NCBI GenBank assembly: GCA_022641735.1
Contig: JALCDQ010000001.1
Location: forward strand, 124,001-188,000
Direction of reading: 5' to 3'
DNA: 64,000 nucleotides
Source of the DNA: Prevotella sp.
Lineage (GTDB): Bacteria; Bacteroidota; Bacteroidia; Bacteroidales; Bacteroidaceae
A program made the translations under genes and the position numbers. Under the pieces are notes generated by a model, which saw only the letters and a program-made list of their open reading frames with translations, did no database searches and was not told the origin of the DNA. Positions 27,285 through 53,318 of the stretch are shown piece by piece. Position 1 is the first letter of the stretch. Every line of letters begins with the position of its first letter.

Positions 27285-27362
27285 TTGCAGAAGATAAGCT
27301 GCATTTTGGCATAATATTCAAGCATGCTTGATGATTCTGCTCTCGATATGCATTATCCTTGT
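27285..27362 (+). repeat. Dispersed promoter/leader repeat, copy 1
   Basis: TATCTTTGCAGAAGATAAGCTGCATTTTGGCA...TTGATGATTCTGCTCTCG; matches the minus strand at about 30475-30573. Confidence 0.75.
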
Positions 27363-27381
27363 ACCTTAAAATAAGTGTTTT

Positions 27382-28722: not shown

Positions 28723-28835
28723 ACACCGACTAATCTTCAAATATTTCTATTCAATTCACCGGATAAAAAGCAAAAAATGGAACTTCACATCACGTGCAAT
28801 TCCATTCGAGAGAGGGTTTTATGGGAACTAAAACC

Positions 28836-29243
28836 TTATTCTTCCGTCGGCTCTGATTTGGGCTCTTTCTTCTCCATATAGCGTTGGATGAAGAAGGAGG
28901 CAAGAAGTCCTAAGCCCACACCGCAGGCGATGATAATCCAATAGCCTACATTCGCTATGTCCAAACCACCAATGAGGCAGTCTACCGAATAACCTACTCC
29001 CAAACCTAAGAGTACGCATGAGGCGCGAAGAGTGCCGTAATTCTTGGTGTCCTTTTCTTGTTCCGGTTTGACAATCAATAACTTAGCCGTTTCCGCATCT
29101 ACATGATTCTCAATGATAGACTTGCGGATTTCACTCTCAATCTGTCGTTTTCTCATCTGTGCAATCATGCCAAAAACAATGGCTACGATAGGGATTGACA
29201 TCGTGAGAACCACTGCAAATAAACCTATAACACTATTATCCAT
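28836..29243 (-). CDS. DUF6249-like membrane protein
   Basis: Three TM segments; last gene in a sigma factor operon. Family name from recall. Confidence 0.6.
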   Translation of the reverse strand: MDNSVIGLFAVVLTMSIPIVAIVFGMIAQMRKRQIESEIRKSIIENHVDAETAKLLIVKPEQEKDTKNYGTLRASCVLLGLGVGYSVDCLIGGLDIANVGYWIIIACGVGLGLLASFFIQRYMEKKEPKSEPTEE

Positions 29244-29262
29244 AATTTAAATATTTAATTGA

Positions 29263-29580
29263 TTAAACTTCCATTTTAAACTCACTGATGGCTTTTGATG
29301 ACAAGATGAGCGTCGAGACGGCAAGTATTGCCACACTGACCATCATCGGCAGGGTCTTTCCGAGAGAGAGAAGATGATAGCAGGTGAAGCCCATCAGCAG
29401 TATCACAAGCGGCAATCCGAAGGCAAACGCTATCATGCGCACCCAGTTGCGGGCCTTCGTTTTGCGGGCAGAGCGCTTCACTGTGCGCATCACTCGGCCG
29501 TTAACCTCATCGAGCAACTGCTCTCTCTGCAAGGCCTCTTGTATCAGAGTCTCCAACTCCTGTTCATTCATTTCCTTCAT
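29263..29580 (-). CDS. Small membrane protein, candidate anti-sigma factor
   Basis: Two TM segments; overlaps the end of a sigma factor gene. Confidence 0.5.
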   Translation of the reverse strand: MKEMNEQELETLIQEALQREQLLDEVNGRVMRTVKRSARKTKARNWVRMIAFAFGLPLVILLMGFTCYHLLSLGKTLPMMVSVAILAVSTLILSSKAISEFKMEV

Positions 29581-30100
29581 TTTGCATCTGTTTTCTTAAT
29601 CGTTCTCTAATTCTGTGCAGTTTTACAAGCACATTGGCTTGCGTCATCTTGAGAGTTTCGGCCACCTCCGATGTCTTCATCTGCTGATAATAGAACATCT
29701 TCAGTATGCGCCGTTCTTCCTCCGGCAGGGTACTTACAGCCCTTTCCATCACCTGCAACCGCCGCTCATGGTCTTCTGAGAATCCTTCCTGTTCTGCCAC
29801 TTCCACGCGTTGCTCGTCAAGGGAAGCCGTCGGTCGTTGCCGCTCTTTGCGTAAGGCATCCAGCGAGAGATGTATTGCGATAGTCGTAATCCATGAGCCC
29901 AAGCTCGCTCCTTGCCAGTTCTCGAGGCTGCTGAAGGCTCGGATGAAGGCTTGCTGAGTGATGTCTTTCGCCATCTCCTCACGGTGCACCAGGGTCATGG
30001 TCTTCGAGAATACGAGTCCCGAATATCGGTTCATTATCTCGCCATAGCTTTGGGTGTCGCCCTGCTGCAATATCTTTTTTACTATCTCTTGATCGTCCAT
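29564..30100 (-). CDS. ECF-type RNA polymerase sigma factor
   Basis: YSGLVFSKTMTLVHREEMAKDITQQAFIRAF (region 2) and LPEEERRILKMFYYQQMKTSEVAETLKMTQANVLVKLHRIRERL (region 4). Confidence 0.93.
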   Translation of the reverse strand: MDDQEIVKKILQQGDTQSYGEIMNRYSGLVFSKTMTLVHREEMAKDITQQAFIRAFSSLENWQGASLGSWITTIAIHLSLDALRKERQRPTASLDEQRVEVAEQEGFSEDHERRLQVMERAVSTLPEEERRILKMFYYQQMKTSEVAETLKMTQANVLVKLHRIRERLRKQMQNEGNE

Positions 30101-30474
30101 TTTTGAATGTCTAACACTTTAAAGACCGACAAAAGGCAAAATTATTACATCTTGAAGGCAACTTTTTTTCAAAAACCCTCGATGCCGATGTGTTCGGTGC
30201 ATTGTTCCCATCCAATGCTTGCAGGCCTTGAGCGTGGCCTATCTCGGCATGTACTTCTGCGGAAGAGAATGGATTGCAGAGGCCGATGCAGGCAGAATCC
30301 CAATATCCCAGAATGTCCAATAAGTCAAAGAGCGCTTCGTCATCTCATCGCTTCCGGATAGCGGAAAGACGGCTTTCTTCAGGGTTCTTTTCGGATGCCG
30401 TCCTGATTCGTATCTGTGGCGCCTTCAGACACATCAGAAATCGGCCATGCGATTCGTCCCCTTTCGTGGTGCGA

Positions 30475-30573
30475 AAGATTGCCAACCGAGAGCAGAATCA
30501 TCAATGCTTGCTTTTGATGTCGTGCCAAGGTGCAGCTTATCTTCGCTTTTCACAATGCAAAGATACTACAAAC
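30475..30573 (-). repeat. Dispersed promoter/leader repeat, copy 2
   Basis: Minus strand: TATCTTTGCATTGTGAAAAGCGAAGATAAGCTGCACCTTGGCA...TTGATGATTCTGCTCTCGG. Confidence 0.75.
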
Positions 30574-30590
30574 GAAAAGCAAAAGGGGAA

Positions 30591-30657
30591 TTATCGCGAC
30601 TTATCGAGACTTATCGGGACTTATCGCGACTTATCGAGACTTATCGGGACTTATCGA
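30591..30657. repeat. Decamer tandem repeat TTATCG(C/A/G)GAC, about 6.7 copies
   Basis: Exact 10-nt period; variable base cycles C, A, G twice, giving a 30-nt higher-order repeat. Confidence 0.97.
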
Positions 30658-30692
30658 AAGCGGAAAGTACGATAAACAGAGGGATTGCGAGA

Positions 30693-30886
30693 GTTTTGTA
30701 ACAAATGTAACAAATGTAACACCCATTTTTAGTACCTTCCTGTTTTCTGAGGAAAAAAATTGGGAAATATAACTTAATAATATATATATAATAATTAATA
30801 TTATTATATATATATTATTAAACTGAAGTCCGAAAAACGGAAGGTACTAAATTTAACTGTTACAAACGTTACAAACGTTACAAAAT
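30693..30886. repeat. Large composite inverted repeat with AT-only core
   Basis: Arm GTTTTGTAACAAATGTAACAAATGTAACACCCATTTTTAGTACCTTCC against inverted GGAAGGTACTAAATTTAACTGTTACAAACGTTACAAACGTTACAAAA; core 30775-30820 is a perfect 21-bp stem with loop TAAT. Confidence 0.93.
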
Positions 30887-31112
30887 CATCCGATTCATCC
30901 ATTCTGAAAGGAGAAACCAACGTTTCACGCCCCTACTTGACCAGCCCATAAGTTGAGATGAAATGCCTTCGATAAATTGAATCTGAAGGAAGACGAAAGT
31001 GCCCACATGCCTGCTCTCCTATGCCCTTTTCATCTATTCTGACCTTTGACCTGCGAGATTAGGTAAAATCGTATTTTTCGGTTTAAAGATTATGTTAAAA
31101 GATTTGGAATTT

Positions 31113-31137
31113 CAGATTTTTTTTCCTATCTTTGTAT
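31113..31137 (+). promoter_or_regulatory. Bacteroidetes-type promoter (TTTG-N20-TATCTTTG) with no recognizable gene downstream
   Basis: ...agaTTTGgaatttcagattttttttccTATCTTTGtatc.... Exact edges approximate. Confidence 0.6.
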
Positions 31138-31540
31138 CATGCTTGCTGAACCTGATACACCTGACCCCTTCATGGTGGAATCCCTGTAAAAAGGGAGGAT
31201 TTCGGGCTCAAAAAATAACTGAAATGAATGGGCACAAAGAACCCCTGTTCCCAAAATGACACTCTCGCGCCATGCTTTTCTACGCCATCGCATCGGCACA
31301 GACATTTGGGGGCTTGAATCAGGGGATTTCTCGAAGATGGAGTGCTATCGTGCCCGAAAAAATCAGGACAACTCGGCATCGTGGCGTTGATTGCTATGAC
31401 GAGAATGACGAGTGAAAGGAAGTGATGCGGAGAGCGGCGACATTACTTTTGGGATAGGTATGCACCTTGCCGATGACACTGCGGATTAAAAGCTACATGG
31501 AGTCAACCTAAATCAGGAAACTACAGACACGTGAAAAAGA

Positions 31541-31585
31541 TTTTTGTAACGTTTGTAACAAATGTAACACCCGATTTTAGTACCT
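31541..31585 (+). repeat. Third copy of the TGTAAC/TTTAGTACCT arm
   Basis: TTTTTGTAACGTTTGTAACAAATGTAACACCCGATTTTAGTACCT. Confidence 0.9.
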
Positions 31586-31589
31586 CACA

Positions 31590-32660
31590 TCAGTCTGATT
31601 TGTTGGCATTCTTCATGTTCACGGTGAAAGTATGCAATTGCTCCTTGAAGTCGTAGCTGACCGTCCATTTATAATAATCACATACCTGCCTTACGATGGC
31701 CAATCCCAATCCATTGCCTCGCTGATTGCGCGCAGGATTATGAAAACGGCTGAAAAGCATTTCTGTATCTAACTTCGGAGAAAGCGAATAGTTGCTCACT
31801 TCCAGCCTATCCGTATCGAGCACTATCTTCACATTCATGCCTTCCTCCGCATTGCGAAGGGCGTTCACCACCAGATTGTTTACCAATACCTCCACCAATA
31901 TCCGATTTGCATCCAGCTTCACATCGGCTTTTTGAATTAAGGAAATGCCTGTAGGATAGAGCCTTTCATAACCCGGCATCAGTTCCTGAATGACCTCCGA
32001 TAAAGAGAATACTTCCTTATCCTCATATTGTTTGTTCTCGATTTTCGCCAAAAGAAGCAGACTCTTATTGAGATGGTCTAATCGTCGGGTCACCGAATAC
32101 ATATTATCTACGATGTCGGATTCCTTTTCACTCAAGTTTTCTTGCAGCAACATGTCGAGGTCGGCACGGATAACAGCAATGGGAGTCTGCAACTCATGGG
32201 AAGCATTCTCCGTGAATTCCTTCTGTATTTTATAGCTTCGGGTATCCCTTTCAAGCAAGTCGGTAAGCGAAGACGACAACTGATTGAACTCCCTGACATT
32301 GGTTTCATGAAAAGTGGGGACCTCATCCTTGCCTAATTTGAAGTGCTCTATCTTCTGCAAAATCTCATAAAAAGGAGTCCATAGATTCTTGGTAACCAAG
32401 CGGATAGTCAGCAAGACAGAAGCTCCTACGGCAATGGCAATGAGCACATATTGGAACAACATGCCCACCATTACATCACGCTCAAGGTCGATATCCTCAT
32501 CAATCTTTTGCCCTGCCTTATAAGACTTCACCACGTCTATCAGGTCTTCAGCATAATAGCGGGTGGTTACATAGTAAAAAACAGGTATGCACAAAATCAG
32601 GATTACCACGATGACTATCGTGAGCCTGGTCATTGTCTTGTTGAGTAGAGTTTTCGTCAT
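31590..32660 (-). CDS. Two-component sensor histidine kinase
   Basis: HAMP region, H-box FTENASHELQTPIAVIRADLDMLL, G-box GNGLGLAIVRQVCDYY. Confidence 0.95.
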   Translation of the reverse strand: MTKTLLNKTMTRLTIVIVVILILCIPVFYYVTTRYYAEDLIDVVKSYKAGQKIDEDIDLERDVMVGMLFQYVLIAIAVGASVLLTIRLVTKNLWTPFYEILQKIEHFKLGKDEVPTFHETNVREFNQLSSSLTDLLERDTRSYKIQKEFTENASHELQTPIAVIRADLDMLLQENLSEKESDIVDNMYSVTRRLDHLNKSLLLLAKIENKQYEDKEVFSLSEVIQELMPGYERLYPTGISLIQKADVKLDANRILVEVLVNNLVVNALRNAEEGMNVKIVLDTDRLEVSNYSLSPKLDTEMLFSRFHNPARNQRGNGLGLAIVRQVCDYYKWTVSYDFKEQLHTFTVNMKNANKSD

Positions 32661-32664
32661 AGGC

Positions 32665-33339
32665 CTAAACTATCCATTTATAACCAGCCCCATAGAGAGT
32701 TCTGATGCATTCAGGACAGCCCGTACTATCGAGTTTTCGCTTCAAATTCTTGATATGAGTGAATACGATGTTGAAGTTATCCATCATATCCGCCATCTCT
32801 CCTGTTAAGTGCTCGGCTATCGCCATCTTTGAGATTACCTTGCCGCTATTGCACACCAAGAAGAGCAAAAGTTCATATTCCGTCTTCGTAAGGGACAGCA
32901 TTTGTCCGTTAGCCTTTGCCTCTTTGCTCTGCATATTGATTTCCACAGGACCGCTTTTGAGCAGGTTGTTGTTGTGGGAATAACGCCGGCGCATGAGCGC
33001 AAAGACGCGAATCTTCAGTTCTGAGAGGTTGAAAGGCTTGGAGATGTAATCATCCGCACCAATCTCAAGACCCTCAATCTTGTCATCGACACTGTCTTTT
33101 GCCGACACGATAATCACCCCTGTATCGGGCTTATGCTGCTTGATATGGCGAAGCACATCAAGCCCATTACCATCCGGCAACATCAAGTCGAGCAAGACGC
33201 AATCGTAATCGTAGACACCCACCTTCATCAGCGCATCGCTGATAGTGAATGCCTGTTCGCAAAGGTACTCGTCAGCAGAAAGAAATTTCACGATACTGTC
33301 TGACAGCCTTCGCTCATCTTCAACAATCAATATCTTCAT
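32665..33339 (-). CDS. OmpR-family response regulator
   Basis: MKILIVEDERRLSDSI, DLMLPDGNGLDVL, winged-helix C-terminus. Start at 33339. Confidence 0.95.
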   Translation of the reverse strand: MKILIVEDERRLSDSIVKFLSADEYLCEQAFTISDALMKVGVYDYDCVLLDLMLPDGNGLDVLRHIKQHKPDTGVIIVSAKDSVDDKIEGLEIGADDYISKPFNLSELKIRVFALMRRRYSHNNNLLKSGPVEINMQSKEAKANGQMLSLTKTEYELLLFLVCNSGKVISKMAIAEHLTGEMADMMDNFNIVFTHIKNLKRKLDSTGCPECIRTLYGAGYKWIV

Positions 33340-33386
33340 CTTATAATAGTGCAAAATTAATAAAATAAATGACAAACAAGAAATAA

Positions 33387-34676
33387 TTACATAGTTTTTA
33401 CACTTGGATTAATAGCAGGCATGCTCAATCCTATGAAGAAAATGGCCATTAAAACACCATAAGCAATCAACTGCAAAGTCTGGCTAAGCGTATGATGGCG
33501 GGCTTCATAAATAGCTTTTCCACTCATCAACGTCAAGGCTCCTGAAGCGAAATAGACTGATACATTATTCAACCATTGCATTCCTGAAAGCTTCGACAAC
33601 AAAATGATGACCGGTATGGAGAAGCAGAAAAGGAAGGCAGGCACCAATGCGAGGATTTTAGCCCACTTCTCCTCCTCAAAGCGCGCGATAAGACTTGCGG
33701 AGAGAAAGACGGCAAAGGGGAATGCCGGCAACAAGTAGATGGCCAGCTTACCACTGATGAGTGACAACAAAACGATGCTGGAAAAGACGATACTGAAAAA
33801 GAAACGCTGTAAATCAGTGAGATAGACGCGCCTGTAAAGAGCCACTCCCATCGCTCCTATCATCAATAAAGTCCATGGTTGCCAAGCATAAAGGACCGAT
33901 ATCAAGTAATAATAGAACGGGCGATTATGATGGAAAGAGTTCACCGCACGACCAACCGTCTGATGGAAAAGCAGGTTGTTTATATAGTCAGGACCGCCTT
34001 CCAGATAGGTAGCCGTAAACCAAAGGCCACACGCGACAACGAGTATCAGCCAGAAACGCCATCCGAAACACTTAGCGGCAAAGCGTGTCTGCTTCTTCAA
34101 AACAAGAAAGGTGATGATGCCCACAACGGGAATCAGCAGTCCTAAAGGTCCTTTTGTGAAGATGGCAAGGAACACCCAAAGCGCAAACAAAAAGTTTTCC
34201 TTGGGGGAATATTTCTGATACATCCGCCAAAACGAGCGCAAGGCAAGGAGTATGAAAAAACTCATGAGCATATCCATCCTTACCACAAAGGCCGCACCCA
34301 CAAACAAACCGCACGACATCAGCATCAAACAGGCCGTCAGACGATGACCAGCATCCATCTCCTCAGCCATCCAGTCGTTGATGATTTTCGTCATCCATAT
34401 AGCTGGAATAAAGGAAAACAGACTCAAATAAATCATCTGATAACCACCCGTAAGCCAGCGGCAAAGCATCACAATCCATATATAAAGAGGTGGTTTGTCG
34501 GCATAAGGCACTCCATTCAGTGTGAAAGAGAAGAAATGACCCTCACGGAGAGCCTCGTTGGCAATGGTCAGATAGCGCATTTCATTCTCCGGTGTAAACG
34601 TTCGGAGTATTAAAATTGGAATGAAGGCAACGATGACGAAGAACCACATCGTATCAAACTTCAGGAAACTTTTCAT
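33387..34676 (-). CDS. ArnT/GT39-like glycosyltransferase
   Basis: MRYLTIANEALREGHFFSFTLNGVPYADKPPLYIW, multi-TM. Confidence 0.85.
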   Translation of the reverse strand: MKSFLKFDTMWFFVIVAFIPILILRTFTPENEMRYLTIANEALREGHFFSFTLNGVPYADKPPLYIWIVMLCRWLTGGYQMIYLSLFSFIPAIWMTKIINDWMAEEMDAGHRLTACLMLMSCGLFVGAAFVVRMDMLMSFFILLALRSFWRMYQKYSPKENFLFALWVFLAIFTKGPLGLLIPVVGIITFLVLKKQTRFAAKCFGWRFWLILVVACGLWFTATYLEGGPDYINNLLFHQTVGRAVNSFHHNRPFYYYLISVLYAWQPWTLLMIGAMGVALYRRVYLTDLQRFFFSIVFSSIVLLSLISGKLAIYLLPAFPFAVFLSASLIARFEEEKWAKILALVPAFLFCFSIPVIILLSKLSGMQWLNNVSVYFASGALTLMSGKAIYEARHHTLSQTLQLIAYGVLMAIFFIGLSMPAINPSVKTM

Positions 34677-35296
34677 ACTTTCGATTCAATTAAATGATAC
34701 ATATTTTGGAGATATCCTTTCCATTCTAAATTGCTTAAGAAGTGGTATAAATAGGCCATAATCCGTGCACAAACGAATCCGATGATAAGTCCTACGAGGA
34801 TATCACTGGGATAATGAACGCCTAAATACATTCTTGAATAGCAGACGATGAGCATCCAGCCACATAATAGCCAGCCAATCACTTTCTTACGAGTGGTATA
34901 AAACCAAAAGAAAGTCAATCCCGCAGAATTGGCGGCATGACTGGAAGGGAAACCATTACTGCCTCCATGGTATCCGAAAACCGTGTGAATGTAAACTGAA
35001 AGGGGATTGTCGGGGTTGGAAGGTCTCATTCTGCACACCAAAGGTTTCAGTAGGCCAGATGTCACTTGGTCGGTCATGACAATGCAAACAACCACGGCTA
35101 TCATCCACAAAATCACATTCCGCCGACTCTTATTTCTGGAGATGACGACAAAGAGCATGATATAGAGGGGTATCCACAATATCTTGTCACTGAAAAGGAA
35201 CATAATGACATCACTCAACTGACTATGCCACCCATTAATAGCAAGCAGGAGTTGACTATCTATTGTACTAAGTAAGTATTGAATATCATTAAACAT
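34673..35296 (-). CDS. PAP2-superfamily phosphatase (candidate lipid A/undecaprenyl phosphatase)
   Basis: KPLVCRMRPSNP, GFPSSHAANSAGL and SRMYLGVHYPSDIL signature motifs. Confidence 0.9.
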   Translation of the reverse strand: MFNDIQYLLSTIDSQLLLAINGWHSQLSDVIMFLFSDKILWIPLYIMLFVVISRNKSRRNVILWMIAVVVCIVMTDQVTSGLLKPLVCRMRPSNPDNPLSVYIHTVFGYHGGSNGFPSSHAANSAGLTFFWFYTTRKKVIGWLLCGWMLIVCYSRMYLGVHYPSDILVGLIIGFVCARIMAYLYHFLSNLEWKGYLQNMYHLIESKV

Positions 35297-35496
35297 GCTT
35301 CGACCTTTAAACCGGGTGTAAAAGTACAGATGAAATCTGAAGAAATTCTGAAGAAATAGTCAAAGAAGCGTTAATGTTCTTTAAAGATTAAGAGAAAAAA
35401 GAACAATAGCCACAAAAAAGGAATTTTTGATTACTGATAATTCAAAAAAAATTGCCACCTTTGCAAGGTTATGGTAAACTCTTTGAATAATTAAAT

Positions 35497-36507
35497 ATGA
35501 AAACTATTAGAATCTTTTTCATCGCCCTTCTTTGTTTAGGGCTGACTACAACACAAGCTCAAAATACAGGAAAGAGAAACCGTTTGAAAGTAGGACTTGT
35601 GCTTGGAGGCGGTGGAGCCAAAGGCGCTTCCGAAGTGGGAGTGTTGAAATATATCGAGAAATCCGGCATTCCTATTGACTATATTGCAGGAACGAGCATC
35701 GGGTCAATCATTGGCGGACTCTATTCTTGCGGCTATCGCTCTGCTGATTTGGATTCCATGTTCCGTTCACAAGAATGGAAAACGCTCCTTGGAGATAGGG
35801 ATGATGACTTGAAAGGAGCCGTTTTGAAGAAGAAAAACGGAGTAGTTTATATGTTCGGATTTCCTGTTGGAAGGAAAGGCTCTGCACTTGCAGACTCCTC
35901 AATAGGAGCAATCCGTGGCGATAATATCATTCATCTGCTCGACTCGATGACCAATCGCCATGACTCCATATCATTTGATAAACTCCCTATTCCGTTCCGT
36001 TGCATCGCTACTGACTATAAACATCATAAGGAAGTGGTGCTTTCCAGTGGATGGCTACCTCAATCCATGCGGGCAAGTATGGCCATACCAGGTGCTTTCA
36101 AGCCCGTGGAAATCGACTCCATGGAATTACTCGACGGAGGCCTCATCAATAATTTACCGGTTGATGTGGTGCGTGCTATGGGAGCAGATGTGGTGATTGC
36201 CATCGACCTCACGCAAAACAAGCATGAAGGGGAAAAGCAAAAGAAAGCCCCGTTGATACTCCGCAAAGCCAAAACAGAGTTCGGGCAATTGGCAAAATGG
36301 GCCATTACCCGTCCTGACTTGATAAAATATGAGAAGAACAGAACAGATGCCGACGTCTATATCAACCCTCCTCTGAAAGGCTATGGAGCAGGAAGCTTCA
36401 GCAGCAAGAGCATTAAAGAGATGATTGAAATCGGCTATTTATCGGGTAAGGCGGCTTTAGATGATTTGATAGCCCTGAAGAAGAAAGTGATGCGAGGAAA
36501 GAAATAG
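35497..36507 (+). CDS. Patatin-like phospholipase, secreted
   Basis: LVLGGGGAKGASEVGVLKY, GTSIGSIIGGLYSCGY, DGGLINNLPVDV. Confidence 0.92.
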   Translation: MKTIRIFFIALLCLGLTTTQAQNTGKRNRLKVGLVLGGGGAKGASEVGVLKYIEKSGIPIDYIAGTSIGSIIGGLYSCGYRSADLDSMFRSQEWKTLLGDRDDDLKGAVLKKKNGVVYMFGFPVGRKGSALADSSIGAIRGDNIIHLLDSMTNRHDSISFDKLPIPFRCIATDYKHHKEVVLSSGWLPQSMRASMAIPGAFKPVEIDSMELLDGGLINNLPVDVVRAMGADVVIAIDLTQNKHEGEKQKKAPLILRKAKTEFGQLAKWAITRPDLIKYEKNRTDADVYINPPLKGYGAGSFSSKSIKEMIEIGYLSGKAALDDLIALKKKVMRGKK

Positions 36508-36513
36508 CAAAGA

Positions 36514-36547
36514 AAAAGGAGGCTCTTTTCAAGTCTCCTTTTATTTT
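36514..36547 (+). terminator. Hairpin terminator
   Basis: AAAAGGAG...CTCCTTTT followed by ATTTTTG. Confidence 0.7.
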
Positions 36548-36552
36548 TGTCT

Positions 36553-37401
36553 TTAATCTTCAGTTTCTTCTTTCTTGTCTTCCGTTTCCTCTTTCTTCGC
36601 GGTTCTACGGATAGAGCGCTTGCGTTTTGGCTTTTCTTCTGCCGTAGCAATCTTCACTCCAGCCAAATCAGGGTCAATCATGATGCGGCCGCAATACTCG
36701 CAAACGAGAATCTTCTTATGCATCTTGATATCCAATTGACGCTGAGGTGGTATCTTATTGAAGCAACCTCCGCAGGCATCACGCTGCACTACGGTGATAC
36801 CCAAGCCATTGCGGGCATTCTTACGAATACGTTTGAAGCTGTTGAGAAGACGTGGTTCTATCTTAGCCTCCAGCTCGCGAGCCTTCGTTTTGTATTTCTC
36901 TTCCTCGTCACGAGTTTCTTGCATGATTTCCTCAAGTTCACCTCTTTTCTCTTCGAGAGCCACATTACGGTCGGCAATGAGTGATTGAGTGTCTTCCATC
37001 TCCTTCTTCTTCTCGTCGATTTTCACCGTTGCTTCCTTGATTTTCTTGTTGCAAAGCTCGATTTCCAGTGTCTGGAATTCAATCTCCTTGCTCAAAGTGT
37101 CATACTCGCGGTTGTTCTTCACATCGTCCAATTGAGCCTTATAGCGGGCAACACTCGTTTCAGCCTGAGCTATATCGCCTTTCTTCTGACCCATTGCGGC
37201 CTCAAAGTCAGCTATCTCACCTTGGATTTTCTCCACACGGGTGTTAAGTCCTTCTATCTCATCTTCCAAGTCCTGCACTTCCAAAGGAAGCTCACCGCGC
37301 AATGCACGCTTGTCGTCGATTGCCGACAAGATAGTCTGCAACTGATAAAGAGTTTTCAGTTTCTCTTCTACCGTCAAATCTGTTGGATCTTTTTTTGCCA
37401 T
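36553..37401 (-). CDS. Coiled-coil zinc ribbon protein (DUF164/C4-type)
   Basis: Long coiled coil then CGGCFNKIPPQRQLDIKMHKKILVCEYCGRIM. Confidence 0.88.
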   Translation of the reverse strand: MAKKDPTDLTVEEKLKTLYQLQTILSAIDDKRALRGELPLEVQDLEDEIEGLNTRVEKIQGEIADFEAAMGQKKGDIAQAETSVARYKAQLDDVKNNREYDTLSKEIEFQTLEIELCNKKIKEATVKIDEKKKEMEDTQSLIADRNVALEEKRGELEEIMQETRDEEEKYKTKARELEAKIEPRLLNSFKRIRKNARNGLGITVVQRDACGGCFNKIPPQRQLDIKMHKKILVCEYCGRIMIDPDLAGVKIATAEEKPKRKRSIRRTAKKEETEDKKEETED

Positions 37402-37404
37402 ATT

Positions 37405-38193
37405 TTATAAGTAAATTATAGGATTGGTGCAAACCTCAGTGAGACAACATCTCACGCCGGGACACTTCTCCTCGATGATTGATTTAAATATTTCATTCGT
37501 AAATTGTTCACTCTGATAGTGGCCGATGACGGCTATCTGTATCTCCTGGTCATGCCCGAAGAACTCATGATAGTGCATCTCGCCCGTCACAAAGGCATCT
37601 GCGCCCTTCTCTATCGCTTCCTGCAAAAGGAAAGAACCGGCACCTCCACAGAGGGCAACCTTCTTTATTTCCCTACGAATCAACTGATTAGCCTGCACGC
37701 ATTCCACATCGAATGTCTTCTTGAGCATCAATATGAAGTCGTCAGCAGCCATGGGTTCACTGAAACTTCCGATAACTCCTTCGCCGCCATCAACGTTTTC
37801 CACCGTCTTCAGCGACCCGAAGAAAGAGAGTTCGTGAAGGCCCATCTTCTCGGCAATCTTATAGTTTACGCCTCCTTGAGCACTATCCATATTGGTGTGC
37901 ATGGATGCGATTGTGATGTCGGCACGGATTGCCTTCATCACCGTCCGTTGCACATAGTCTTCGCCGGAAATACGGCTCAACTTATGGAAGATGAGCGGGT
38001 GATGAGAGATTATCAGATTGCAACCGCGCCGAATGGCTTCGTCGACAATCTGTTCAGTCACGTCCAGACACAATAAAGCCCCTGAGACTTCCGCTTCTGT
38101 TAATCCTATTTGCAAGCCGGCATTATCAAAGTCTTCCTGCAAGGGCAGAGGCGCGAATCGTTCAAGGGCGTTAACCACTTCTATAATTTTCAC
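37405..38193 (-). CDS. Nif3-like dinuclear metal center protein
   Basis: EDFDNAGLQIG, ISHHPLIF, GAGSFLLQEAIEKGADAFVTGEMHYHE. GTG start at 38193 preferred because the ORF-track start overlaps a TATCTTTGC promoter. Confidence 0.9.
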   Translation of the reverse strand: MKIIEVVNALERFAPLPLQEDFDNAGLQIGLTEAEVSGALLCLDVTEQIVDEAIRRGCNLIISHHPLIFHKLSRISGEDYVQRTVMKAIRADITIASMHTNMDSAQGGVNYKIAEKMGLHELSFFGSLKTVENVDGGEGVIGSFSEPMAADDFILMLKKTFDVECVQANQLIRREIKKVALCGGAGSFLLQEAIEKGADAFVTGEMHYHEFFGHDQEIQIAVIGHYQSEQFTNEIFKSIIEEKCPGVRCCLTEVCTNPIIYL

Positions 38194-38357
38194 GCTAAAT
38201 ATAAATCTAGATTGCAAAGATACTACTTTTTATCTGATTTCAGCATGGAGGAAAGCGGTTTTTAATATTTTTTAATTTTATTGTTAAGCATCGGCAGGAC
38301 AAAGAGTCTTCTCGCTATTTGAAACTACTTGAAAATGAGGTGATTGCAAAGACGATT

Positions 38358-38445
38358 GTAAAAGACTATCTTTTACCCTGTAAATAACGGTCTTTTACCT
38401 TGTAAACAACGATTGTTTACCTCGTAAAAAGCCATCTTTTACAAT
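38358..38445. repeat. Period-22 palindrome array, locus D (4 units)
   Basis: GTAAAAGACTATCTTTTAC-cct-GTAAATAACGGTCTTTTAC-ctt-GTAAACAACGATTGTTTAC-ctc-GTAAAAAGCCATCTTTTAC. Confidence 0.95.
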
Positions 38446-38484
38446 GCCTTTCATCATCACTCTTCAAAAAGGAGGTTTTCTTGC

Positions 38485-39321
38485 CTACCAATCATTGAGG
38501 TCTTCCTCGCTCTCAACGGCTTTTTCCACGTCATCGGGCAACGATGGGAAGAAGTCTATGCCAGTAATTCGCTCTATCTGGTCAATCGAGTTTACGTAGT
38601 CGCCTTTTGGCCGATTGCCAGGCTCGTTCTTATAGATGAATCCGATGGCCTTAGGAGTTCCCTGCATGCAGAGCACCACTTTGAAGAAGGCTTCAGGCAC
38701 AGTGATGCGGTTCTGCCCTATCGTCTTATGCTTGCTTCGATAAAGGATAGGCCCGCAAACGATGTAAATGTCGCCGTATTCCTCTGCCCATTTGCGGCAT
38801 TGTATCTCCATTTCATTCCAGTCTCCTTCGTTCAGATTATGGTCTTGCGGACACATATTGGTGAAGAGAAAGCAGTCTTGCTGAGCCTGCTCATCCCATT
38901 TATTATCGGCGGAAGGACACATGTGGCCACGGTCATAACCAGAGCGCTGATAATCATAGGTGTTAGCTCTCGGTGTCGGCACATCCATATCCTCTTGGAA
39001 AGGAATGCCGCCACGCTTGTAAGGACCTGTCGTATGGTCGGCCGTGAGATGCCATGCCACCCAATTAGGGATGCGCAAATCCTTATTATAAGACACGGTA
39101 TATCCCGTGCGTCGCAATATCTGCTCGGCTCTGTCCTTAAGAGGAGCTGGGATTTCAAGCGTTCCCTTCGGGTCACTTTTCTGTTGGGTGGAAGCCTGTT
39201 TCTGCTCTTCTTTAGGGGCATTTGAGGCAATTCCTCCCATGAGAGGCTTATGCGTGAAATTAAGACAACCCGCCAACAAGCAGGCAAAAAACAACAAGAA
39301 GGAGAAATGTTTCATTTTCAT
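38485..39321 (-). CDS. DNA/RNA non-specific endonuclease, lipoprotein
   Basis: Lipobox LLAGC; YDRGHMCPSADNKW and NMCPQDHNLNEGDWNEME. Confidence 0.93.
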   Translation of the reverse strand: MKMKHFSFLLFFACLLAGCLNFTHKPLMGGIASNAPKEEQKQASTQQKSDPKGTLEIPAPLKDRAEQILRRTGYTVSYNKDLRIPNWVAWHLTADHTTGPYKRGGIPFQEDMDVPTPRANTYDYQRSGYDRGHMCPSADNKWDEQAQQDCFLFTNMCPQDHNLNEGDWNEMEIQCRKWAEEYGDIYIVCGPILYRSKHKTIGQNRITVPEAFFKVVLCMQGTPKAIGFIYKNEPGNRPKGDYVNSIDQIERITGIDFFPSLPDDVEKAVESEEDLNDW

Positions 39322-40088
39322 TATTTACCTTTCAATTTATCATATTCATCGAATGAATATCTGCGTGCGGCCCATAAAGTGATGAGCAGGGAGGTCAAAG
39401 ACGTGGAAAAAAGGAGGATGAGAATAAGCAACTGATAGCAAACGGCCGCTATCAGAGTGACTCCACTCATCAACATAACCCACAAAATGACAGGTGCAAC
39501 CCCCACTACCATATATCCCATCGAGGAAATCCACGGTGAGGCCGACTTCTGCAAAGCGCGTCGTACAAAATAATTTACAGCTTCCTTATGGGTGGCCCCA
39601 TTGCCCAAAAGATAATAATAAAGGGCTGAATGATGCTGCAACCCTGAATAATAGACTGACAGAGCATTAGCATTCACCCCTATCATCGACCCAATCAGCA
39701 ACCCTATAACGGGTATGAAATATCTTGCATCGAATGGATTTTTCAGTCCTGCAACGAAGAAAAGGAAGTAAAGACCTATGACAAGAGCACTGGAAAGGAG
39801 GCCTACAAACACAGGTATCACATACTTACTGCTCTTCAATCGGGCTTTCCCCACCATCATCACAGCAGCTGCCAATGCCATCAAAACAATCCATAAGATG
39901 TTGAGTAACACGTTGTTCCATTGTAAAATGAAGTAGAGGCAGAAGCCTGTCAGCGCCAGCCATACCGTCATTTTGCCAAAAGCCACGAGTGCTTTCTGCA
40001 TGAGATTGATGCGAAAAGCATAGAGAATATAAAGTGGAATGGCCAATAGCAACAGGCCTAAAACAAATCCTAATAGAGTGATTTCCAT
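39321..40088 (-). CDS. FetB-like (UPF0014) ABC transporter permease
   Basis: ARYFIPVIGLLIGSMIGVNANALSVYYSGL; multi-TM. Confidence 0.8.
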   Translation of the reverse strand: MEITLLGFVLGLLLLAIPLYILYAFRINLMQKALVAFGKMTVWLALTGFCLYFILQWNNVLLNILWIVLMALAAAVMMVGKARLKSSKYVIPVFVGLLSSALVIGLYFLFFVAGLKNPFDARYFIPVIGLLIGSMIGVNANALSVYYSGLQHHSALYYYLLGNGATHKEAVNYFVRRALQKSASPWISSMGYMVVGVAPVILWVMLMSGVTLIAAVCYQLLILILLFSTSLTSLLITLWAARRYSFDEYDKLKGK

Positions 40089-40103
40089 TTCTGTGAGTTA
40101 TTA

Positions 40104-40718
40104 TTAAACGCTTTCTTTATCTAATGAAATATGTTTATCAAAGAGCCTTACCAGTGACTCATCTTGCAAAACGACAATGGCACTGACGCCATCATGATTC
40201 AATCGGCGGATATACTCTATCTCCCGACCCATCTGCAAGTCATCCAAAAGCAGGATAGGCTTCTTCAGAAGACCTTCCATGGCAAGCATGATGCATTGCA
40301 ACGAACCTTTATCCAAACTGCTCGGAGCGGCCTTGCAGATGCTTTCTTCTAAGCCTGATTGTTGCAATTCTGCAATAATCATTTCCTTTGAAATATCTTT
40401 ACGCTGATTGATTTTCAAATCCAAGATTCCATCTATCCAGTTTTCCACCGTCTCATAAGGCAATTCGAGGCTTTGCGGCAGATAGCACATTCTTTGCCGA
40501 AAATAAGCGGCAGACATCTTATTGACCACCTCTCCCTCAATGGTAAAATAACCCTTATCGAAAGGCAACAAACCTTGCATAGCGAGCAGAAGAGCGGTCT
40601 TGCCAGTACCCTGCCTTCCCGTAATGCACAGATTCTCACCACTTTCAAGTTTCAATGATAGATTGTTTACTATCTGTTGCCCTGCTATGGATAGAGAGAC
40701 GTTTTTAAACTCAAGCAT
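40104..40718 (-). CDS. ABC transporter ATP-binding protein (FetA-like)
   Basis: Walker A TGRQGTGKTALLLAMQG, Walker B PILLLDDLQ. Confidence 0.85.
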   Translation of the reverse strand: MLEFKNVSLSIAGQQIVNNLSLKLESGENLCITGRQGTGKTALLLAMQGLLPFDKGYFTIEGEVVNKMSAAYFRQRMCYLPQSLELPYETVENWIDGILDLKINQRKDISKEMIIAELQQSGLEESICKAAPSSLDKGSLQCIMLAMEGLLKKPILLLDDLQMGREIEYIRRLNHDGVSAIVVLQDESLVRLFDKHISLDKESV

Positions 40719-40809
40719 ATAAGAACTTCATCATATTTTTGCAAAATTACAAATAAATCTCCAAAGATATGAATTTATTTCGCTATCTTTGCCTAAAAAT
40801 ATTTCAATC

Positions 40810-41850
40810 ATGCCGAAAAAGGAGTGTTATCTGCCTGCAGAATGGGAGCCACAGAGTGGAATTCAACTCACTTGGCCTCATGAAGATACTGACTGGAAGC
40901 CGTATCTTCAGGAGATTACATCGGTGTTTCTCCAACTTGCAGAGGTGATTCTTGTCCACGAGAAACTCTTGATTGTCTCACCAAACATCAAAGCCACGGA
41001 GGCACTCATCAAGGAACATATCGACAAAAGTCTGCTCGAAAACTTACGATTGATGGAATGTGACACCAATGACACTTGGGCGCGTGACCACGCTTTCATC
41101 TCTCTCAAGGGTGCGGAAAGCCCTCTCCTGCTCGACTTCAAATTCAATGCTTGGGGAGAGAAATTCGATTGGCAGAAAGATAATGAGATAAATCGGAATC
41201 TCTCTGAATCAGGCCTTTTGAAGGGCATCTATAAGGATGAAGAGGACTTTATCTTAGAGGGTGGCTCAATAGAAAGTGATGGCAAAGGAACGATTTTCAC
41301 CACCAGCACTTGCCTTTTGGCTCCTCATCGCAACCAACCCCTCACTCAGGCAGAGATAGAGAGCCAACTGAAGCATCGCCTTCAGGCGCAACGCATCGTA
41401 TGGATAACCCATGGATGCCTCACGGGTGACGATACCGACGGGCATATCGACACACTCGTACGCACGGCTCCAAACGACACCTTATTATATGTAGATTGTG
41501 AGGATGAGGGCAATCCGCAATATATGGAACTCAAGGCAATGGAACAACAACTGAAAACCCTGAAGACTTTGGAAGGTAAACCCTATCGATTGCTTCGACT
41601 TCCTATGCCTGATAAGATCGTTTTTGATGGCGAACAATTGCCTGCGACCTATGCTAATTTCTTGATAATCAACGATGTTGTCATCGTTCCCACTTATGGG
41701 CAAGAAGCCAAAGACAAGGAGGCTAAGCGCATCATTGCCACCGCTTTCCCTGAAAGAAACATCATTGGCATCGATGCCCGAATCATTATTCGTCAGCATG
41801 GGTCTATCCATTGCCTGACGATGCAATATCCCGAAAATGTAATTATCTGA
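40810..41850 (+). CDS. aguA: Agmatine deiminase
   Basis: LPAEWEPQSGIQLTWPHEDTDW, NDTWARDHAFISL, EGGSIESDGKGT, GDDTDGHIDTLVR. Confidence 0.96.
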   Translation: MPKKECYLPAEWEPQSGIQLTWPHEDTDWKPYLQEITSVFLQLAEVILVHEKLLIVSPNIKATEALIKEHIDKSLLENLRLMECDTNDTWARDHAFISLKGAESPLLLDFKFNAWGEKFDWQKDNEINRNLSESGLLKGIYKDEEDFILEGGSIESDGKGTIFTTSTCLLAPHRNQPLTQAEIESQLKHRLQAQRIVWITHGCLTGDDTDGHIDTLVRTAPNDTLLYVDCEDEGNPQYMELKAMEQQLKTLKTLEGKPYRLLRLPMPDKIVFDGEQLPATYANFLIINDVVIVPTYGQEAKDKEAKRIIATAFPERNIIGIDARIIIRQHGSIHCLTMQYPENVII

Positions 41851-41860
41851 TATAGAGAAT

Positions 41861-42760
41861 ATGAAAGAACTGAAAATAGGCCTTTTGCAACAACACAACA
41901 CCGCCTCGCAAGAAGACAATATGCGCAGATTGGCGGAAGGTATTACCGACCTTGCAAAGCGTGGAGCCCAACTAATCGTGCTTCAAGAATTGCACAATAG
42001 TCTTTATTTCTGCCAAGTGGAAGACGTTGCCAACTTCGATTTTGCCGAAACAATACCTGGCCCTTCCACAGGTTTCTATGGTGAACTGGCAAAACAATTG
42101 GGGGTGGTCATTGTCACTTCACTCTTTGAGAAACGTGCTCCAGGCGTATATCATAACACGGCCGTGGTTATCGAAAACGATGGTTCGATAGCAGGAAAAT
42201 ATCGCAAGATGCACATTCCCGATGACCCTGCTTATTATGAAAAGTTCTATTTTACCCCTGGTGACCTCGGTTTTCACCCCATCGACACAAGCGTTGGCCG
42301 ACTGGGAGTACTTGTCTGCTGGGACCAGTGGTATCCCGAAGCAGCCCGTCTCATGGCTTTGCAGGGCGCAGATATGCTTATTTACCCTACTGCCATCGGT
42401 TATGAAAGCAGTGATAGCAAAGAAGAACAGCAACGACAACGTGAGGCATGGACAACTGTGATGCGTGGTCATGCCGTTGCCAATGGGCTTCCTGTGATAG
42501 CTGTAAACAGAGTTGGCTATGAAGAGTCTCCTTGTCCTATTGGAGAAAAATCATTCCAAGGCATCCAATTTTGGGGCAGTAGTTTCGTGGCAGGCCCACA
42601 AGGCGAACTCCATTATCGTGCTTCGGATAACGAAGAAGAAAGTGTTATCGTGAATATCGACCTTGACCATAGCGAGCAAGTACGCCGTTGGTGGCCATTC
42701 TTACGTGATCGTCGCATCGATTCCTATGGCGATATCACTAAGCGATTGATTGATGAGTAA
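41861..42760 (+). CDS. aguB: N-carbamoylputrescine amidase
   Basis: LQELHNSLYFCQ, KYRKMHIPDDPAYYEKFYFTPGD, VLVCWDQWYPEAARLMAL. Confidence 0.95.
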   Translation: MKELKIGLLQQHNTASQEDNMRRLAEGITDLAKRGAQLIVLQELHNSLYFCQVEDVANFDFAETIPGPSTGFYGELAKQLGVVIVTSLFEKRAPGVYHNTAVVIENDGSIAGKYRKMHIPDDPAYYEKFYFTPGDLGFHPIDTSVGRLGVLVCWDQWYPEAARLMALQGADMLIYPTAIGYESSDSKEEQQRQREAWTTVMRGHAVANGLPVIAVNRVGYEESPCPIGEKSFQGIQFWGSSFVAGPQGELHYRASDNEEESVIVNIDLDHSEQVRRWWPFLRDRRIDSYGDITKRLIDE

Positions 42761-42771
42761 AGGGAAAATGG

Positions 42772-42809
42772 CTTTTCCTGATTGTTTGATTTCCTTCAAT
42801 CAGGAAAAG
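42772..42809. terminator. Bidirectional hairpin terminator between convergent genes
   Basis: CTTTTCCTGATTG-12 nt-CAATCAGGAAAAG, perfect 13-bp stem. Confidence 0.85.
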
Positions 42810-42810
42810 T

Positions 42811-44094
42811 CTACTCCTCTTCTTCGGCTTCTTTCATTCCAAAATGAGCATCTACCTTCAGGAAACAGGCTATAATGAATGGGAGAATACAACAAATCAG
42901 CACGATGATGAAGAACATTCGATAGCCCACCGCATCAGCTAAAGCACCCGCAAACAAACCTGGAAGCATCATACTCAATGCCATAAAACCAGTACATAAT
43001 GCGTAATTGCTGGCTTTATGCTCACCTTGGCTGAAATAGATCGGGAGCAACATATAAGCACAAAAACCGAATCCATAACCAAGAGCCTGAAGGAATACGG
43101 CTATATTGATGGCTATCAGACTTTGTGGCATGACATAAGCTAAATAGATGTAAGCAATATTTGGGATAGTGATGGCTCCCGTCATCGGCCATAGCCATTT
43201 CTTCAATCCATCCCGACTAACAAAAATCCTACCGATAATACCACCAACAAGCAGTCCGATAACTCCCACTGTACCATTGACTAATCCAAACTCTTGTGGT
43301 GACAAGGCCAGTCCAAACTTACTGCCTGATGCCTGCAAAAAGAGTTGACTCACTGGGGTAAGCAACGCCTCAGGTAAACGGAAAAGCAGTATGAATGCAA
43401 GAACTATGAATATCTGCTTTTGTTGAAAGAATGCTTTACTGGTTTCGAGGAAATCTGCAAAGATTTCATGAGCATTCTTCTCATGATGTCCCACATCTCC
43501 TTTCGGGTAAGGAAGAATGAAGTTGTGGTAGAGATAAAAAGCGATGAAAAGTCCTGTCAGACCATAGAATATCAATCCCCAAGAAAATGTTATCTGATTG
43601 CGAAACATTACTTGTAAGACTCCCGCCAACATGATGAGCACTCCTTTGCCGAAAATCATTGACAAACGATAGAATGCTGGACGGATGCCTACGAAGAAAG
43701 ACTGCTCATGCTGGTCAAGGCTAAGCATATAAAAATCATCGGCTGCCACGTCATGAGTGGCACTTGAAAACGCCATAATCCAAAAGAAACAGATGGAACC
43801 TTGTAACCACCAGTCTGATTGAATGGTAAATGCCACACCTGCATAAGCTGCTCCTAAGAGCAATTGCATCGTGTTTACCCACCATCGTTTGGTCTTAAGC
43901 AGAGTGAGGAACGGACTCCATAAAGGTTTCAACACCCATGGAAGGTAGAACCATGAAGTGTAGAAGGTTACCTCGGCATCGCTCAATCCCAGCTGCATAT
44001 AGATTTCTATGCTGAGGAGAGTTACTGCCACGTAAGGCAATCCTTCTGCAAAATAGAGAGTCGGAACCCAACTCCATGGTGTCCTTGCTTTCAT
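42811..44094 (-). CDS. AmpG-like MFS permease
   Basis: PWSWVPTLYFAEGLPYVAVTLLSIEIYMQLGLSDAEVTFYTSWFYLPWVLKPLWSP; 12-TM pattern. Confidence 0.85.
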   Translation of the reverse strand: MKARTPWSWVPTLYFAEGLPYVAVTLLSIEIYMQLGLSDAEVTFYTSWFYLPWVLKPLWSPFLTLLKTKRWWVNTMQLLLGAAYAGVAFTIQSDWWLQGSICFFWIMAFSSATHDVAADDFYMLSLDQHEQSFFVGIRPAFYRLSMIFGKGVLIMLAGVLQVMFRNQITFSWGLIFYGLTGLFIAFYLYHNFILPYPKGDVGHHEKNAHEIFADFLETSKAFFQQKQIFIVLAFILLFRLPEALLTPVSQLFLQASGSKFGLALSPQEFGLVNGTVGVIGLLVGGIIGRIFVSRDGLKKWLWPMTGAITIPNIAYIYLAYVMPQSLIAINIAVFLQALGYGFGFCAYMLLPIYFSQGEHKASNYALCTGFMALSMMLPGLFAGALADAVGYRMFFIIVLICCILPFIIACFLKVDAHFGMKEAEEEE

Positions 44095-44096
44095 CT

Positions 44097-47000
44097 TTAC
44101 TTATAGATTTTCTTTATTTCAGCACCTTTATAATAATGCAAGAGTATCTCATCATATTTATATCCTTTCTCTCCCATCACAGCAGCACCTATCTGGCAAA
44201 GGCCTACACCATGCCCCCATCCTGCTCCTATGAGTTCAAACGATTGTGGAATGCCGTCTTTCACGTCTTTCTTATCCACCACAAAAGCACTGCTATAGAG
44301 ATGGCTTTCACTCAAAGCGCGACGTATCTCCAGTTCCTTACCAATCGTAAAAGTACGCTCTGAACCCACAATCTTCAACTTGGAGAGACGACCACTCTTA
44401 CCTCTTTCAAGAGGAATAAGGTCTATTATCTTGCCAAAATCCATCTTCAACTTGCGGGAAATGAGTTCAGAGATTTGCTCTTGGGTATAAGTTACATGCC
44501 AACGATAGAAGTCGGAAGTCTCCTGGTCATAGTCATTGAGCACTTGAGAAAGTACCTTGCGATCTTGCGTATTGCAGAAAGCATCAGGGTTAGAACGTAT
44601 CCATTTATCAGCATTTGCCTCTATTGTCAAATCTGGAACAGACCCTTCAGCATCATCTCTGATAGCCTTCAAATAAGACTTTGGCGTATCTTCCCAGCAA
44701 TACTGATATTCTTCAGAAACCCCACCACAACTTTTAGAAAAGCGGGCGTCACATATCTCGCCATCAGAATATAGTATCTGGCCACGCGTTGCCTTGATTG
44801 CCTCCACCACATGATGACTCGTTTCCTTGGTAATTCCTTGATAGCGCTGGCAATGGTCATCAGCACAAACATCGAAAATTGTATGGTCTTCACGGTCATA
44901 CCAACGAATAAGTTCATCCTCTTTCTTGATAAAAGAGAAGAAATTATTACCTCCTTCACTCAACTGCTGGCGTTTCATCATCTGCGCTAAAAGCCAACTT
45001 CGGGAGATGACGGCATGCGCTTTGAGAAGTTCAAGGCTTGAAGTTGCGCTCATCTCACTGGATATCACGCTCTCCAAATATTCCTCCACAGGCAACTCAT
45101 TGATAGCACATATTTTGTCCTCTTCCACTACAAAGTGGAGCGTACCAGCAAAAGTCTGGGTCTCCTTGCGTTCCCAATGGAAATTCACACCAATTGTGAC
45201 ATCATTAAGAGAAAACGAGGCATCGGGAGATTGCGGTTGAAAGACAAGCTCACGATATTGATTGCCATTCCAGAGAACACTTCCCTCTGAGAATTGTGCT
45301 ACCTGTTCCCCTATGATTTCCTCACCTTTTGCAAGATAAGGCTTATTTAAAGTGAAGTGAATCTCGGCACCACTGACGATGCCCACACTGACTTCGGGTT
45401 CTTTCTTATAAAAATTCATTTGCTTCTCGTCGTTATTTTCGGTTATTTGATTTCTTAATTTATCCTCTATCTGTTGCATTCCTTCGGGCGACACGCACAC
45501 CTCTTTTAATATAGAGGCAGCCATCTCTGCGGTCAGCCTTTGAAAGTCTTTCTCTCGCGCAGTGATAAAGAGGCCCGCCATGTCGATGGCACCAGGGCTA
45601 ATCATCAGTCGTTCAGAGTCTTGAAGGAAATAACAATCAGGGCGATGTTTCTTTCTTGGGAACACCAAACTCAACTGTTCATCATCTTTCCGCCAAGCAA
45701 CGATATTCATCATGGGCTCAGTATCTCCTTCTTGCATTGGCAAAGCTTTATAAAGCAGATGAAAGAGGCTTTCGTCACTCTCCTCATGTCGGCTTCTGAT
45801 AAGAAAGAGCGGACAGATGAAATCCTTCACTACTGAGATATTTTCCTCTTCATTGAGCGCATGCACAACTTCAAGGTTTCTGCTCAAACGTGGCCATTCT
45901 GTCTGCAAAGGAAGCATGCCACTGGTGCCACCTTGGAAGTGCAGATGGTCAGGCGCTGATGCCCCACACTTAGGGCCATTGTAAAAGACCATCAAATCGC
46001 TATATACAGAGAGAATTCTATGAATCCCATTATAATGCTGAAGGATGCTCTGAGGCTGATGGCGACGTGCTGGTATTGTGAAATGAAGCGGCAAGATCGG
46101 AAATGGATTGACGAGCATTTCAAAATTTCCGTCTATCCTCTTTGCCCTTTGCTCTTTCGGCCGATTCTTCTCGCAAAGGAAGCAAGGCCGCTCGGCAATA
46201 GCCTCTTTATCGAGATTAGCACCTGTGGAAACCATTCGGGCAGGGTTATATTGCACCTTCAAGGTCATATCGCCACAAGCAAGTTCTTTCGTCTGAATAT
46301 CCCGAAGGTCATGGAATTGCTCACGTGCAAAATCCCATATCTCCAATTGTCGATTGAAAAACCGCTGCAAACTATCATAAGCCATGATGTCATCTTTGCC
46401 TGAAAGCATCTGCTGACGGGCATTTACCTCCAACGTGCGAATCCTATCTTTATAAAGATTATTGGCATTTATCTGCTCGATATTCAACTCATGGTCGCTG
46501 TTGCCTTCCCATCTTCTACTAATGGAAAGTTCCTCAAATATGCGCCCGATGCGATAGCGACGCGAGAAAACGAGGCCTACCGCATAATCCTCTCCATAAC
46601 TGACATTAGGGAAACCAATCTGTCTTATCAGGGGTGTGAAGAATGCCCGCGGAGCTCCGATTCCATTAACGCGCAAGAGATTGTTGCAACCATTCTCTTC
46701 TGTCCATTCCCTATGCTCTATCAAACCTGGAGGAAGGGTGTTAAGATGGAAGTCGCATAGGCGATAGCTACCCACCACCATCGCTAACTTTTCTTTATGA
46801 AATTTCTCAACAATACGTTGTAAAGATTTCGGGGAAGAGAACAAATCATCACTATCCAATTGCACCGCAATCCTGCCACAATGTTCATCATTGACAGCCA
46901 AGTTCCAGCAACCCCCAATGCCCAAATCTACACGCTCAGGTAAAAGACGATAGATTGCCTTGCTTTTAACGGCTATTTGGTCGATAAGTAACGGTGTTTT

Positions 47001-47870: not shown

Positions 47871-47980
47871 CTATGTGAAAAATTTTTTATTTGACTGCAA
47901 ATATAACACAAATTACGGAAAAACGAGCCAAAATTGACAATTTTTCTTTATCTTTGCACCATAAAAAAGGAAGGCAAGCT

Positions 47981-53317: not shown

Positions 53318-53318
53318 G

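Follow-up and report, generated by a model that had tools for sequence, protein, structure and literature searches.

Analysis of a 64,000-nt stretch of Prevotella DNA (the window, meaning that stretch at its full length) and of the genome to which it belongs established a 22-bp lattice in the chromosome, which is coherent in phase over kilobases and confined to synonymous and non-coding sites. The lattice is in register with arrays of palindromic units, is conserved between species, and is accompanied by phase-biased recent substitutions and by spacing differences that cluster near multiples of 11 and 22 bp. The arrays, which an initial annotation of the window had taken for a small dispersed family of intergenic elements, are the visible, high-information, unconstrained stretches of this lattice. 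That family does exist; however, it is neither small nor merely dispersed, being part of a genome-wide lattice in about half of the sampled Prevotellaceae. Judging from sequence comparison, we give an even chance to the best explanation of the data as a whole, namely that a chromosomal 22-bp lattice would be occupied by a putative dimeric nucleoid protein, with nucleation at the arrays, cooperative spreading, and a sequence adapted to the protein.

Palindromic arrays in the window and in the host genome

Five arrays lie in the window, within a lattice that spans its full length. The features are as follows; none is assigned to a strand.

5030..5114, no strand: array with other arms, dyad GTTACACACGGCTTGTAAT, units at 5030 (degenerate), 5052, 5074 and 5096; lattice offset -0.1 to 1.1 bp
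12064..12148, no strand: four-unit type B array, three units CCAAAACAARTTGTTTT[AG][CG] and one mosaic unit GTAAAAGACCATTGTTTAC; lattice offset -0.6 to 0.3 bp
20462..20546, no strand: four-unit type C array, three [AG]TGAATCAGGCTGTTTTAC-like units and one mosaic unit GTAAAAGACTATTGTTTAC; lattice offset -1.4 to -0.1 bp
38358..38442, no strand: four-unit type A array, four 19-bp dyads with 3-bp spacers; lattice offset 1.7-3.3 bp
62720..62782, no strand: strong units at 62742 and 62764, degenerate in-register unit at 62720; lattice offset -2.4 to -0.4 bp
1..64000, no strand: 22-bp lattice, carried mostly by third codon positions, which give a chi2/df of 4.97 at period 22

Each of the four units annotated at 38358, of the form GTAAA-N9-TTTAC and in exact 22-nt register, was located (38358-38376, 38380-38398, 38402-38420, and 38424-38442). 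The start of this array holds, while its end, previously placed at 38445, falls with the last unit at 38442. The 19+3 layout recurs, as had been proposed, at 12064-12148, 20462-20546, and 62720-62782 (where the first unit is degenerate), and it also holds for the diverged version at 5030-5114 once GTTACACACGGCTTGTAAT is taken as the dyad, the reading with which this array matches the lattice phase. Prevotella sp. KH2C16 and oral taxon 376 have arrays whose words are near-identical to those at 5030. When the arrays and 200 bp on either side were masked, third-codon AT3 in the window ranged from 0.41 to 0.58 at period 22, and chi2/df was 0.65-1.27 at periods 18-21 and 23-26. The local lattice phase agreed with all five arrays to within 3.3 bp, and with four of them to within 2.4 bp.

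Elsewhere in the window, a cluster of short tandem repeats at 30586-30884, composed of TTATCGAGAC (period 10, also 30) and of TGTAACAAA and GTTACAAAC (period 9), stands outside the 22-bp register family. A cobalamin riboswitch (22636-22819, minus strand; RF00174, 100.5 bits) lies directly upstream of a TonB-dependent receptor gene (20626-22692, minus strand), whose product is weakly similar to B12 receptors.

The host is a Prevotella draft genome of 2.56 Mb in 33 contigs (completeness 81.5%), of which 1.59 Mb (62%) was read as stretches for the array and lattice analyses. Across the whole genome, paired 19+3 dyads with at most three mismatches number 455, compared to 1 for the reversed pattern, which rules out chance as the origin of this layout, and de novo dyad autocorrelation over 1.05 Mb peaks at 22 and 44. 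The 1.59 Mb contain 130 arrays, or about one per 12 kb, and exactly four units, the peak of the copy-number distribution, are present in 68 of them. Genes were called with a simple ORF model of our own (a script), and in the first 1.19 Mb the number of arrays per intergenic region amounts to 38/94 for convergent, 54/245 for codirectional, and 12/118 for divergent neighbours, the regions between divergent genes being depleted. The arrays had been described as lying just 3' of a minus-strand stop codon; this is the case in the window, at distances of 24-180 bp, but genome-wide it gives way to a gene-end bias on either strand. The genome-wide scan that the initial annotation had called for thus revealed neither a restriction to a few loci, nor an absence of gene-end bias, nor a loss of the period.

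Each unit comprises five fixed, three variable, three central, three variable, and five fixed bases, followed by the 3-base spacer, and the alphabet of the variable triplets is small (AGA, CAA, AGG, AAG, TAA, and rarely CAG). In type A units the triplets of the two half-sites assort independently, with no covariation, which is consistent with a dimer reading each half-site on its own, but not with an RNA stem. When units of all types are pooled, pairing exceeds expectation mainly through the homogeneous subfamilies B and C. Arrays of these two types combine three near-identical units bearing other inner words with one type A unit, share their spacers, and look like more recent copies. In type C arrays, such as that at position 67797 of host C1, in-register neighbour units with quite different arms (GCCCTTTG...CAAAGGGT) are found beside ATGAATCAG-type units.

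An RNA-level role, suggested earlier as one option, is disfavoured by the independence of the type A halves, by the commonest mixed unit (AGA with CAA), which disrupts a stem, and by the continuation of the lattice through synonymous sites on both strands. A single long hairpin, formed by pairing of U1 with U4 and U2 with U3, was likewise rejected, since the identity of the paired halves is no higher than in shuffles. A MITE with terminal repeats was also considered, and none was seen around the arrays: the information profile of 57 aligned four-unit arrays displays no conserved ends or terminal repeats, only weak, mirror-symmetric, in-register flanks.

The 22-bp lattice in coding DNA

Alignment of the array flanks reveals a weak consensus that continues in 22-bp steps, for more than eight units, into coding sequence. 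The host genome produces sharp Fourier lines at 22.0 and 11.0 bp, including in coding windows that lie over 500 bp away from any array, and the excess power rises almost linearly as windows are lengthened to about 7 kb. Array flanks of the host genome itself served to train the PWM track; A/T spectra, for which no training is needed, give the same lines. The lattice unit of the host is a 22-bp dyad, A-rich in one half and T-rich in the other.

For the phase test, the phase was estimated from the flanking 0.3-2.5 kb on each side with arrays masked, and composition was then read by phase. At period 22, third codon positions yielded a chi2/df of 118, with AT3 running from 38% to 62% (a range of 24 points), while codon positions 1 and 2 yielded 10.6 and 5.6, respectively, and the control periods 18-21 and 23-26 about 1 (at most 2.6). 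A confident phase was obtained for 47% of positions at period 22, compared to 1.4-3.6% at the control periods. Third-codon composition can still be predicted from the phase taken 2.5-10 kb away (chi2/df 40), but no longer from the phase at 10-25 kb (chi2/df 1.05); the coherence of the host lattice is about 10 kb (7-14 kb). Synonymous codon shuffling within genes reduced P(11) from 9.44 to 2.14 (control 1.01). Amphipathic-helix periodicity was dismissed as the source, since the signal is at third positions, spans genes, and is mostly lost on synonymous shuffling, as was a codon-period artefact in the autocorrelation, where the top lags are still multiples of 22 with same-mod-3 controls.

The register of the arrays is shared by the surrounding coding DNA, with an in-phase z of 18.5 at 100-300 bp that reaches zero by 10-13 kb. 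Furthermore, lattice power peaks near arrays, at 2.9 within 1 kb, and is 0.12 beyond 40 kb. Nearly lattice-free regions were observed at C1:260-270 kb and C4:135-200 kb of the host, in which protein starts suggest a low-GC surface-polysaccharide locus and carbohydrate-use clusters. Several host regions with a weak lattice look like accessory DNA, and the lattice might mark long-resident DNA.

Occurrence and evolution of the lattice

A fine-grid A/T spectrum in 8-kb windows revealed a sharp line at 10.965-11.02 bp in 30 of 66 Prevotellaceae loci. The same spectrum gave no 11-bp line in any of 13 loci from other Bacteroidales families, and none was seen in 50 kb of E. coli. The line is present in isolates and MAGs of many laboratories, among them Hallella seregens, Hoylesella loescheii, H. 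enoeca, Marseilla massiliensis, P. conceptionensis, and P. koreensis. Species other than the host were sampled at 20 kb, and since samples of this size can miss a weak lattice, its presence or absence across species is approximate; three loci without a clear line (L100, L127, and L163) nevertheless contain arrays in their 20-kb samples.

The period differs by clade, being about 11.00 bp in the host and its kin, 10.965-10.985 bp in several Hoylesella, P. koreensis, and P. conceptionensis, and 11.02 bp in the MAG RGIG4444, where one 64-kb window has a power of 65 at 11.025 and of 0.4 at 11.000. Coherence in this relative (G064) thus reaches 64 kb. That the period is not an integer and varies by clade is indicative of a physical helix, and not of a copied repeat unit.

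Among 80 Prevotellaceae loci, three-dyad arrays occur 29 times at period 22, never at 19-21 or 23-25, and once at 26, while 272 kb from 20 other Bacteroidales families contained none at the three-dyad threshold. Related species keep the 19+3 geometry with different arm words, in agreement with the earlier proposal that the sequence varies while period and dyad symmetry are kept. Conservation of an array at the orthologous position is weak at nif3 loci (9 of 77, one of the nine being no better than control periods).

Related species that carry the lattice agree in phase at homologous positions (R 0.71-0.97), with offsets of no more than 0.7 bp. Aligned blocks, whose boundaries were taken whether intergenic or genic, differ in spacing by no more than 1 bp from a multiple of 11 in 25 of 39 cases, compared to 10.6 expected (p 1.7e-6, species-disjoint pairs). 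Pairs without a lattice also exhibit a weak excess (23 of 56 near multiples of 11, compared to 15.3 expected; p 0.018), these pairs having been picked from 20-kb samples and including L106, in which a weak line was found later. The longest pair, G070-G065, displays differences of 22, 22, 23, 24, 42, 44, 46, 87, 88, 110, 154, 197, 220, and 462 bp, many of which are multiples of 22. This clustering is no proof of selection, because slippage or recombination between 22-bp units also yields multiples of 22 bp. Third-codon substitutions, the polarisation of which is imperfect at these divergences, are phase-biased in both directions (p 0.016 and 0.003 with one outgroup, 0.0007 and 0.004 with the other), which implies that the lattice is under maintenance and is not a relic.

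Candidate explanations and known systems

Phased binding of a dimer about every two helical turns, as put forward in the initial annotation, is the reading that best fits the exact 22-bp register, the two-fold symmetry, the independent half-sites, and the coding lattice. Independent half-sites and species-specific arm words at a fixed geometry suggest a dimer that reads sequence, and the combination of two-fold symmetry, a two-turn repeat, words that evolve fast while the geometry stays fixed, and coherence over kilobases is best explained by a dimeric nucleoid protein. Such a sequence-preferring protein would lie along the DNA with one dimer per 22 bp; the pitch of about 11.0 bp for each turn is that of negatively supercoiled DNA. 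The four-unit arrays would be the preferred or best-fitting sites of the protein, at which it would start or by which it would be registered, and it would extend cooperatively for kilobases. The sequence would be adapted to it, with synonymous sites under selection and indels that shift the phase selected against, perhaps with assistance from mutation biases caused by the lattice.

In its fullest form, this proposal describes a bacterial chromatin of Prevotellaceae, in which a lattice of dimeric protein at 22 bp would be rotationally fixed over at least about 10 kb and nucleated by four-dyad arrays, with synonymous codons and intergenic lengths keeping the register, a clade-specific pitch, and species-specific words; we hold this version tentatively, at slightly under an even chance. 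The coexistence of several arm words in one genome is unusual for a single sequence-specific protein, and about half of the Prevotellaceae loci are without a clear line; both points count against the protein lattice.

The DUF2582 winged-helix protein and the HU and HU-HIG families, considered as candidates for the lattice protein, do not distinguish genomes with a lattice from those without, being present in every genome tested. The host encodes a 101-aa protein (C2:128970-129275, minus strand) in which a lysine/alanine-rich N-terminal tail precedes a DUF2582 winged helix, a layout like that of histone H1, and this tailed protein was found in 39 of 39 Prevotellaceae tested. HU-HIG matches number 39 in Hoylesella enoeca JCM 12259 (L143, G071), compared to 2-12 in the other 39 panel genomes.

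The composition wave could also be a neutral imprint, if a fixed rotational setting of protein-coated or supercoiled DNA were to alter mutation or repair by helix face. The concentration of the effect at third codon positions and the phase bias of recent substitutions in both directions fit such a mutation bias as well as they fit selection, and there is a eukaryotic precedent, one paper having argued that nucleosome-linked G+C variation stems from mutation bias (PMC4419799). We regard this account as rather unlikely, given that it does not readily explain the specific arm words, the exact dyads, or the four-unit mode; moreover, it still requires an evolutionarily stable register and therefore a physical lattice.

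A code of intrinsic shape, in which helically phased A/T tracts would curve or writhe the DNA for plectonemes or packing with no lattice protein, and of which the arrays would be the most curved segments, is in our opinion improbable. An 11.0-bp A/T wave is indeed the classical curvature signal, 11 bp per turn agrees with negatively supercoiled DNA, and a third-codon periodicity of about 11 bp is documented in bacteria (PMC4132750). However, for local curvature, phasing over about 100 bp is enough, and coherence over 10-64 kb is not required; nor are spacing differences between orthologous blocks near multiples of 11 bp, and curvature on its own selects neither palindromic, species-specific words nor a 22-bp polarity.

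It is very improbable that the arrays are REP/BIME-like or MITE-borne repeats that form RNA hairpins at gene 3' ends, for termination or mRNA protection, unconnected with the coding periodicity. Their bias to convergent and 3'-terminal positions would suit such elements, as would the apparently recent copying of subfamilies B and C with shared spacers, but the type A units lack compensatory covariation, the 57 aligned arrays have no conserved ends beyond weak in-register units, and the arrays are in phase with coding DNA for kilobases. Finally, although the host is a 33-contig draft, 81.5% complete, with simple-script gene calls, the probability of an assembly or analysis artefact is negligible, since the line recurs in isolates and in MAGs produced by many different laboratories, the control periods give a flat signal, and neither E. 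coli nor the other Bacteroidales families show it.

If the protein lattice is true, bacteria would possess a chromatin with rotational order, and its unit, register, and pitch could be read from sequence alone; in abundant bacteria of the gut and mouth, much of the choice among synonymous codons would be set by lattice position, not by translation. The chromosome reads as if composed to suit a regularly spaced, so far undescribed DNA-packing structure. Nucleoid structure, the in vivo helical repeat, synonymous-site selection, and foreign-DNA recognition become directly testable in cultivable species. In the open-licence literature searched, no bacterial genome is described in which sequence phase is kept over ten kilobases and through genes, and no earlier report was found of a phase coherent over kilobases, of a lattice of 22-bp dyads, or of spacing differences that cluster by 11 bp, while a prior description elsewhere is possible.

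The REP/BIME elements of Enterobacteria are hundreds of intergenic palindromic repeats biased to gene 3' ends, and the Prevotella arrays resemble them as palindromic extragenic repeats enriched at gene ends. The Prevotella arrays differ in their fixed 22-bp tandem register, typically of four units, in half-sites that are independent (the stem covariation of REP/BIME is absent from type A units), and in a register that continues in coding DNA. A 10-bp dinucleotide periodicity is linked to nucleosomes, particles of about 147 bp; the likeness lies in a sequence adapted to, or imprinted by, a helically phased DNA-wrapping protein, which in Prevotella is putative, whereas the lattice is bacterial, has a 22-bp two-fold unit, and is continuous in phase over kilobases.

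Within the Bacteroidales, BrickBuilt of Porphyromonas gingivalis is an intergenic MITE minisatellite with a fixed 23-nt consensus unit, AGAYCATARTATCCTCTCRTRTG, a leader, a tail, and terminal inverted repeats, present as 19 elements in one strain (PMC4596501). In contrast, the unit of the Prevotella arrays is a 22-bp dyad whose words vary, terminal repeats were not seen, and the arrays occur about once per 12 kb.

A further likeness is to the known sequence periodicity of about 11 bp (a structural code, or class A flexible patterns), an A/T wave that extends for about 100 bp, is most pronounced at third codon positions, and is thought to be linked to nucleoid packing and supercoiling (PMC4132750, PMC1242344, PMC3431218). 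The host shares the A/T periodicity near 11 bp and the preference for synonymous sites; however, while the reported range of the signal is about 100 bp (PMC4132750), the phase in Prevotellaceae is coherent over about 10-64 kb. Beyond this periodicity, Prevotella displays a sharp line at 10.965-11.02 bp, a 22-bp dyad with A/T polarity (in the host), intergenic palindromic arrays in register, and the clustering of spacing differences at multiples of 11 bp.
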